Notes under the pieces: generated by a model
Told to the model about the DNA's origin: nothing
The model's input: the letters and a program-made list of their open reading frames with translations, nothing else
Database searches by the model: none
Shown here: positions 11,892 through 14,800 of the stretch, piece by piece
How the letters are laid out: each line of letters begins with the position of its first letter
Position numbering within the stretch: position 1 is the first letter of the stretch
Assembly (NCBI RefSeq): GCF_032362555.1
Contig: NC_083535.1
Location: forward strand, 3,224,001-3,288,000
From: Amyelois transitella
Taxonomy: Eukaryota > Arthropoda > Insecta > Lepidoptera > Pyralidae
Length of the DNA: 64,000 bases
Direction of reading: 5' to 3'
Made by a program: the position numbers and the translations under genes

Positions 11892-14800
11892 TCACTTCTT
11901 CGTCGGAGTGCCGCGCTGCGTGAGGCCCTCGAACCTCTTGAATGTGTAGTTAATGAACACCCAGTCTTTGTACGCCACTTCACCTTCTTGCGAGATGGGT
12001 GCTGCGGCTGGAACGGAGGTTGTTTTCGTTAAAGCAGGTTTGAAATAAATTAAAAAAAAGAACGCTTAGATACTATGTCATGAAGCCAGCGTTAGATAGA
12101 AGTCATCATACATCAGGATAAAAGAGAACAACTGTTCGGGTTACATACGCTAAAACTATACTTCTTTCTGTGAGTATGCTATGATACAAAATTAATTTCA
12201 TTCACAATTCGAAGTTTCTTCAAAATCCCACCAGACCTAATCCGAACAAGTCTATTAAAAACTACACTCACATATCTCTAGCTTGACGTCGGGGAAGTCG
12301 TCGAAGCTGGACGCGTCATCTTTAGAGCGCACATCGACTCTCTGTCGATGTGCGCTCTGTAGGCTGCATTCTCGCCGGAAATTCCTATTGGAGCGAGACC
12401 GATCAAAAATCTAGTATAAATTACACTCACGTATCTCTAGCTTGACGTCGGGGAAGTCGTCGAAGCTGGACGCGTCATCTTTAGAGCGCACATCGACTCT
12501 CTGTCGATGTGCGCTCTGTAGGCTGCATTCTCGCCGGAAATTCCTATTGGAGCGAGACCGATCAAAAATCTAGTATAAATTACACTCACGTATCTCTAGC
12601 TTGACGTCGGGGAAGTCGTCGAAGCTGGACGCGTCATCTTTAGAGCGCACATCGACTCTCTGTCGATGTGCGCTCTGTAGGCTGCATTCTCGCCGGAAAT
12701 TCCTATTGGAGCGAGACCGATCAAAAATCTAGTATAAATTACACTCACGTATCTCTAGCTTGACGTCGGGGAAGTCGTCGAAGCTGGACGCGTCATCTTT
12801 AGAGCGCACATCGACTCTCTGTCGATGTGCGCTCTGTAGGCTGCATTCTCGCCGGAAATTCCTATTGGAGCGAGACCGATCAAAAATCTAGTATAAATTA
12901 CACTCACGTATCTCTAGCTTGACGTCGGGGAAGTCGTCGAAGCTGGACGCGTCATCTTTAGAGCGCACATCGACTCTCTGTCGATGTGCGCTCTGTAGGC
13001 TGCATTCTCGCCGGAAATTCCTATTGGAGCGAGACCGATCAAAAATCTAGTATAAATTACACTCACGTATCTCTAGCTTGACGTCGGGGAAGTCGTCGAA
13101 GCTGGACGCGTCATCTTTAGAGCGCACATCGACTCTCTGTCGATGTGCGCTCTGTAGGCTGCATTCTCGCCGGAAATTCCTATTGGAGCGAGACCGATCA
13201 AAAATCTAGTATAAATTACACTCACGTATCTCTAGCTTGACGTCGGGGAAGTCGTCGAAGCTGGACGCGTCATCTTTAGAGCGCACATCGACTCTCTGTC
13301 GATGTGCGCTCTGTAGGCTGCATTCTCGCCGGAAATTCCTATTGGAGCGAGACCGATCAAAAATCTAGTATAAATTACACTCACGTATCTCTAGCTTGAC
13401 GTCGGGGAAGTCGTCGAAGTTGGACGTGTCGTCTATGGAGCGCACTTCGACGGAGATGGCGGCGGGGCGCTCGCGCACGTGGTTCCAGTCCACGCCGCGG
13501 AAGAAAGGCACCGATTTCACGTCTTCGATGCCACGCTGGGATCCCAATCTATTAAAAATAAATACCGTTTAGTTTTATTTATTGCATTCTTGTAATTCAT
13601 ACATACATATGCCTACATAAAATAACGCCTCCTTCCCAAAAGGGTACATATTTCCGCTTTCCATGAACCCTACATATTCTTTCGTTTATCCCCACTCATA
13701 TCTTATCATGTTAGCTCGTTGGTTCCCCGATTTGATTAAGGTGCGTACGAAAAAGGCTTACCTTTTCCAACGTTCCCATTCACACTCTCCTTGTATAATA
13801 AATTATTCGTGTCCAAATTTATTATCCTCTCAACAGGACACCGAGCTACCAATTCCATTCGACGGATGGACCGACGAAACAAAAGTCTTGTCAATCAAAA
13901 CAATAGTTTCAGGCTCCAAGACATTTTAGGGGCAAACGTGTATTGTGCTTAGGTAGCATAAAAATCTAGGCTGTAAGTTTCCACATGTAACGAAACAGTC
14001 GCCCGGTTACGTGCAGTTCTTGTGCACGTCAATAAACACAGTAAATAATATTTTTTATTTTATTACTGATCTCCCAGTAGCGTAGGACCCGCGCACTAAA
14101 CCAAACGAAACTTACAGCCTAGATTTTTATGCTACCTAAGCACAATACCTACACGTTTGCCCCTACAACTTCAAAGTATAGTTTGAGACTCGTATATAAC
14201 ACGAAGTACCTGCGGTCCGGTTCTGAGCAGAAGCACAGTATGGTCTCCCTGGCTTCCTCGCTGATGGGTATCTCCGGGGGGAAGGTCAGCGACTCCCGCC
14301 ACGACATCACCTTGCGGTACGTCTCTTGCGGCGACTCCGAGCAGAACGGCGGGTAGCCAATCAGCATCTCATACCTGGAACAGAGGAGATACGGTTTATC
14401 GTTTTCTCCCTATCGTATTGCAAATAGCGTTCTTAGTGCTTCGGAGCTGGGATTAAATTTAGACGGCAAGTATATAATTGATAGTTCATAAAGATTTTTA
14501 CGCTAGACCAGCCCGCTTAACTCAAACCTAATTTTGTTATACATATAATCACACATGTGCTTCATTCTTTATCCCTTATATATGTATAAAACGTACATTA
14601 GGCAGAACTTAAAGACAAGATCTGAACGCTTTTACAATCCGAATTGTGAAAACAACAGCTAACTTAGGCTATGTTTTAACTTCGCTATCAGGCAATCATT
14701 TAAGCACGCAAAGCTGCATTAAGCCAATACATGATTACATATTAAAATAAGCTGCACTTCTTGCAATGATTTAGATAGGCTTTCGCGCATGTACATAATA

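Follow-up and report, generated by a model that had tools for sequence, protein, structure and literature searches.

A probable mirage minisatellite of repeated splice donors in the last intron of the trc gene of Amyelois transitella

The last intron of a trc/NDR kinase gene in the pyralid moth Amyelois transitella is largely taken up by seven tandem copies of the end of the preceding exon, each with its splice donor. The gene lies on the minus strand of a 64,000-nucleotide stretch (assembly GCF_032362555.1, contig NC_083535.1, forward-strand positions 3,224,001 to 3,288,000), which we call the window and to which the positions below refer. We consider it very probable that this array is a mirage minisatellite, that is, a tandem duplication across an exon-intron boundary that was amplified and homogenised and is tolerated by its host gene. 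Four further genes of this moth carry arrays of the same design.

Array anatomy

The joined minus-strand exons of the host gene match STK38 (6bxi_A) with an E-value of 1.8e-183, and the C-terminal piece of the product matches Pkinase_C (E 8.3e-06); therefore the name trc/NDR kinase is correct. Based on the translations and the joined-exon match to STK38, the true copy of the penultimate coding exon occupies 13385-13548 (164 bp, minus strand) and ends in a phase-1 donor, ATAC/GTGAGT, whose first intron base is 13384. The intron that follows spans 12008-13384 (1377 bp, minus strand), as read from its donor and acceptor, and most of it is array. It is the last intron of trc because the next exon, whose coding part lies at 11892-12007 on the minus strand according to the translations, is terminal and holds the stop codon (11892-11894). 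The residues encoded there presumably include the hydrophobic motif.

Comparison of the units showed seven full copies of exactly 159 bp each (12248-13360, minus strand), so that the array described for this intron in an earlier, sequence-only reading was borne out. The six identical units of that reading were likewise recovered, with 0 differences among the inner six (12407-13360). The outermost unit (12248-12406) carries five differences, at 12250, 12255, 12258, 12262 and 12272, four of them in its intron part and one being the last exon base. The true exon end, its donor and the intron start form an eighth copy, the gene's own (13361-13451, minus strand), with six mismatches to the first copy; homology with this period extends beyond the units and reaches 13451 within the true exon (Tandem Repeats Finder, 12251-13451: 7.6 copies, 99% match, score 2332). 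Pattern starts and donor contexts put the first intron base at 12271 for the outermost decoy donor and at 12430, 12589, 12748, 12907, 13066 and 13225 for the other decoys, all on the minus strand. Over 15 bases, six of the seven decoys are identical to the true donor, and the outermost has one change.

The exon end and donor, which had been taken for the content of the unit, are indeed present in each copy but do not make up all of it. Read in gene direction, about 92 bp correspond to the exon end (67 bp) and the donor with the intron start (~25 bp), and about 67 bp are filler, with the border between the two parts placed by eye. A 38-base filler pattern occurs seven times in the window versus 0 in 100 shuffles. 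In this direction the filler terminates in a copy of the exon edge in inverse orientation, with 17 of 19 bases agreeing with the opposite strand of the exon; it pairs with the direct exon-edge copy to give a hairpin with perfect 15-bp arms and a 5-nt loop. This hairpin, a feature of neither strand in particular, recurs once per unit at 159-bp intervals, from 12324-12358 in the outermost unit to 13278-13312, and the fold of one unit reached z-scores of -4.75 (RNA) and -5.32 (DNA). Two reading frames of the unit matched no Pfam family at E-values up to 1. The filler pattern was found in 0 stretches of viral contigs, and tblastn confirmed none of the 18 viral-contig stretches that fitted a pattern for the exon protein.

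Divergence at the array edges

The true exon differs from the first copy by six substitutions, at donor distances of 36, 43, 47, 51, 53 and 62 bp, and its homology to the copies stops 67 bp from the donor; the 5' part of the exon and its acceptor are absent from the copies. Closer in, the true exon and the first copy are the same throughout the nearest 35 exon bases and the beginning of the intron; across all eight copies these 35 bases vary only at the final base of the outermost copy. Under random placement of the six mismatches along the 68 aligned positions, the probability that all would fall in the far 33 is P = 0.01. Perfect agreement near the donor with divergence further in had been noted from the sequence; it stands, with six rather than about seven differing positions, none of them closer than 36 bp to the donor. 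Four of the six differences alter an amino acid, as read from the translations, which fits a copy free of constraint.

Divergence amounts to ~6/31 on the exon side and ~5/25 on the intron side, although both spans are approximate and 24 was used for the latter in the computation. That these six and five differences lie at the opposite outer edges of the array supports unequal crossing-over or conversion. Inner units that are identical, with divergence confined to both outer edges, also support the proposal that the array is very young or being homogenised, and the same pattern would be expected if an old duplication had recently been amplified from the middle outwards. At a butterfly mutation rate of 2.9e-9 per site per generation, the common origin of the six identical units has an upper 95% bound of ~1.1 million generations, assuming simultaneous origin and ignoring conversion. 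Partial gene conversion, one of two sources suggested in the sequence-only reading, is in keeping with the edge pattern; the other, a divergent allele, is not supported, since the genome searches showed no second locus and the amino-acid changes fit an unconstrained copy.

Indeed, searching the genome (327 Mb, 33 contigs) with the unit gave eight matches, every one at the trc locus, and a 94-bp probe of filler plus flank matched seven places at E-values up to 10, all within the array. One candidate region was scored in the probe search, and a miss at the DNA level does not prove rarity. Within this limited sensitivity, the two probes revealed neither a second locus, allelic or paralogous, from which the array could have come nor the dispersed copies of a transposon-borne array. 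Mutually exclusive or duplicated exons were rejected as well, the copies not being complete exons.

Four further arrays in the genome

Further arrays were found by searching the same genome, at first with pieces of the trc protein; the donor counts given here include the true donor. A kinase gene that we take to be MAST-like (best solved relative PKN1, E 1.3e-14) has 12 donors at 149-bp spacing, and a PKC-like kinase gene (PKC eta, E 1e-34) has five at 133 bp. At another exon of the PKC-like gene, an acceptor and the beginning of its exon are present in two copies (L045:1570-1827), together with what seems to be SINE sequence. The longest array, in a kinesin-13-like gene (Klp10A, E 2.3e-64), comprises 24 donors spaced by 150-166 bp (L046:972-4740); its 89-bp exon part is identical in 23 of the 24 copies and has one change in the remaining copy. 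In a myosin-V-like gene (E 1.5e-14), at least seven donors follow at 150-bp spacing, and the array runs off the end of the 1.5 kb fetched. For the 91 bases leading up to the donor its copies are identical to the true exon, with a single difference in 150 at the homology edge. Unit-to-unit variants are present in the MAST-like and kinesin-13-like arrays. One other myosin exon occurs in four copies (G000:C12:10167187-10168555), which contrast with the arrays in being unevenly spaced, as expected of alternatively used muscle myosin exons, which they probably are.

Each of the five long arrays is donor-side, and the single acceptor-side case has only two copies. All five array donors are in phase 1, judged by eye from both flanking exons in four genes and from the exon only in the myosin gene. 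Unit lengths range from 133 to 166 bp, a range to be read knowing that much shorter units would have escaped the searches. These shared regularities of side, phase and length were noticed post hoc in five cases.

Frequency of exon-end arrays

Outside trc, four arrays were found in 474 sampled coding matches (0.8%), or four in 453 without the ABC transporter rows (95% interval 0.24-2.2%). Two arrays came from 142 kinase matches (after removal of 11 and 4 array copies), one from 89 kinesin matches (109 rows less 20 array copies) and one from 87 myosin matches (89 rows less 2 copies); the 75 Rab, 60 sugar transporter and 21 ABC transporter matches yielded 0 arrays. Matches and exons do not correspond exactly, the kinesin, myosin and ABC transporter tables list E-values up to 10 and include some weak rows, the families were hand-picked, arrays with little coding sequence are invisible to this approach, and even spacing was judged by eye from the tables. 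The candidates scored were 150 of 168 in one of the two kinase searches, 92 of 99 for the sugar transporter, 65 of 125 for myosin (PF00063, a search that did reveal the array) and 19 of 189 for the ABC transporter. Family searches in which few candidates were scored say little on arrays (PF00069, 130 of 534; PF00083, 9 of 336; PF00005, 19 of 189).

As background, 20 stretches of 10 kb from the same assembly hold three two-copy repeats with a period of at least 40 and none with three or more copies. Because this sample is small, a preference for exon ends over intron interiors cannot be claimed. One background stretch contains a perfect two-copy tandem duplication of 184 bp (L026:3408-3776).

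Other features of the window

The next trc intron contains a perfect 42-bp inverted repeat with arms 125 bp apart (13940-14148), which looks like a small fold-back transposon. On the minus strand, a tRNA-His-like sequence (32224-32297) that ARAGORN also detected may represent a pseudogene or a SINE fragment; as a weak hit (E 0.047, 32225-32296) it was the single result of an Rfam scan of the window.

Relation to known boundary repeats

Mirages are minisatellite-like tandem duplications of exon-intron boundaries described in amphioxus (PMC3087553); here and below, statements on published work follow excerpts of the sources. The BflGb6 mirage has units of 150-160 bp, six and three in two haplotypes, the BflGb9 mirage has 157-bp units at a 3' exon boundary, and the Adh3 mirage has units of 10-72 bp. 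Regular splicing is seemingly undisturbed by these arrays, and their homogenisation spares the cluster edges (PMC3087553). The list was extended by a TnC mirage and imperfect repeats in PGBD5 (PMC3902484). Like these mirages, the trc array offers extra splice-site copies in units of similar length, with the inner units homogenised and the boundaries excluded. Three testable features assign it to this kind: its units span the exon-intron boundary of the host gene, seven decoy donors lie directly downstream of the true donor, and concerted evolution inside the array (six identical units) excludes the edges. It differs from the amphioxus cases in its insect host and in the hairpin filler, and the arrays reported here reach up to 24 donors. 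Moreover, all five long insect arrays are on the donor side, whereas amphioxus mirages occur on both sides. In the excerpts of the literature covered, arrays named mirages are from amphioxus genes only (PMC3087553, PMC3902484), and splice sites and exon-intron borders were among the terms checked that go unmentioned in those of a paper on Daphnia tandem repeats (PMC3152781).

Human genes in segmental duplications also contain tandem repeats at exon-intron boundaries (PMC2812944). As in trc, these repeats are gene-internal and able to touch the boundary; their units, however, average 30 bp and novel introns were proposed to arise from exonic repeats, whereas the trc units are long and lie inside what is presumably an existing intron. 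Intron gain by tandem genomic duplication (PMC3443670) likewise multiplies splice signals through gene-internal tandem duplication, but in that model a duplicated exonic AGGT creates a new intron, while the intron holding the trc copies has a distinct terminal exon at its far end. The type of structure is thus already known, and what is new is the insect host and the four arrays in 474 coding matches outside trc.

Proposed origin and alternatives

The trc array would have begun with the tandem duplication of a segment reaching from inside the penultimate exon across the donor into the intron. The join would have picked up ~67 bp of filler, part of it the inverted exon edge that now forms the hairpin; such a fold-back join is plausibly the trace of template switching. 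The duplicate may then have drifted freely while selection held the true exon, until unequal crossing-over or conversion amplified the unit to seven. The same process would have equalised the inner units as well as the last 35 bases of the true exon and the intron start, leaving both outer edges divergent. We infer that the array is non-coding and probably tolerated because the donor of the true exon, the first to be transcribed, is used and the remainder is removed with the intron. More generally, donor-side arrays may survive if the first donor transcribed is used and the true exon stays intact, and an acceptor-side array would need the last acceptor to win.

Three points weigh against this account. 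First, the copy number of the trc array is that of the assembled sequence, and regular splicing of the gene is presumed. Second, the remaining 47 bp of filler had no significant source on either strand of the nearby gene region, the best local match of 28 of 36 bases (counted from the printed alignment) being reached in a share of 0.07 of shuffles. Third, the kinesin-13-like gene speaks against a general stop-codon safeguard: downstream of its true donor 1324 codons follow without a stop, across every copy and on into the exon beyond. In the other four genes the corresponding frame meets a stop after 6 (trc), 16 (MAST-like), 45 (PKC-like) and 6 (myosin-V-like) codons, so that decoy use would truncate the protein; in trc it would drop the terminal-exon residues.

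The stop six codons beyond the true trc donor would suit a splicing regulator, in which the eight near-identical donors would tune trc output by competing with one another or by retaining U1 snRNP, with decoy use giving a truncated and probably decayed mRNA. The near-identity of decoys and true donor over 15 bases points in the same direction. A minisatellite in the human gene 6-16/IFI6 reportedly provides multiple splice donor sites, according to the title of a 1995 paper by Turri; repeated donors would then be common to both, those of the trc decoys being predicted from sequence. We regard such a role as unlikely, given that amphioxus mirages are reported to leave regular splicing undisturbed (PMC3087553, PMC3902484) and that arrays in five different genes suggest a mutational cause that is not specific to trc.

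An assembly artefact, in which a short duplication was falsely multiplied, deserves mention because exact repeats are hard to assemble and our evidence is the assembly itself. It is nevertheless very improbable: five genes carry different units, variants occur among the MAST-like and kinesin units, the outermost trc unit is divergent, and the 20 background stretches of the same assembly are free of such arrays. Slightly less credible still is that the units are spliced in as small alternative exons to give trc isoforms. Each unit does have an intact donor and some AG sites, and by eye one candidate acceptor, CTCTAAAG, would yield an in-frame piece of 48 nt; yet six identical units would give isoforms with little to tell them apart, neither the exon's own acceptor nor its 5' part is present in the copies, and the remaining AG sites, as far as inspected by eye, do not fit the phase of the phase-1 donor. 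Exon pieces and internal arrays can occur within Helitron-like elements, but capture of a gene fragment by such a transposable element is the least probable origin, as the filler-and-flank probe, with its limited sensitivity, met only the seven array places and the array homology runs unbroken into the true trc exon.

Implications

That a modest sampling of a single insect genome turned up five long arrays suggests that the process is more widespread and more common than the amphioxus cases alone would indicate. It is possible, though we hold the idea tentatively and would not yet favour it, that this genome often makes exon-end arrays by a process tied to exon ends, with units of near-nucleosome length (133-166 bp), and that only donor-side arrays grow long, the first donor winning. 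If so, such arrays perhaps number in the hundreds genome-wide, extrapolating from four in 474, and each would serve as a natural experiment, with 5 to 24 near-identical donors that differ mainly by position. Rows of this kind would test how the first donor gets chosen. Finally, homogenisation between array and coding exon could rewrite coding sequence, and if the process is as general as proposed, conversion could carry array-borne changes into the coding exons of the host genes.
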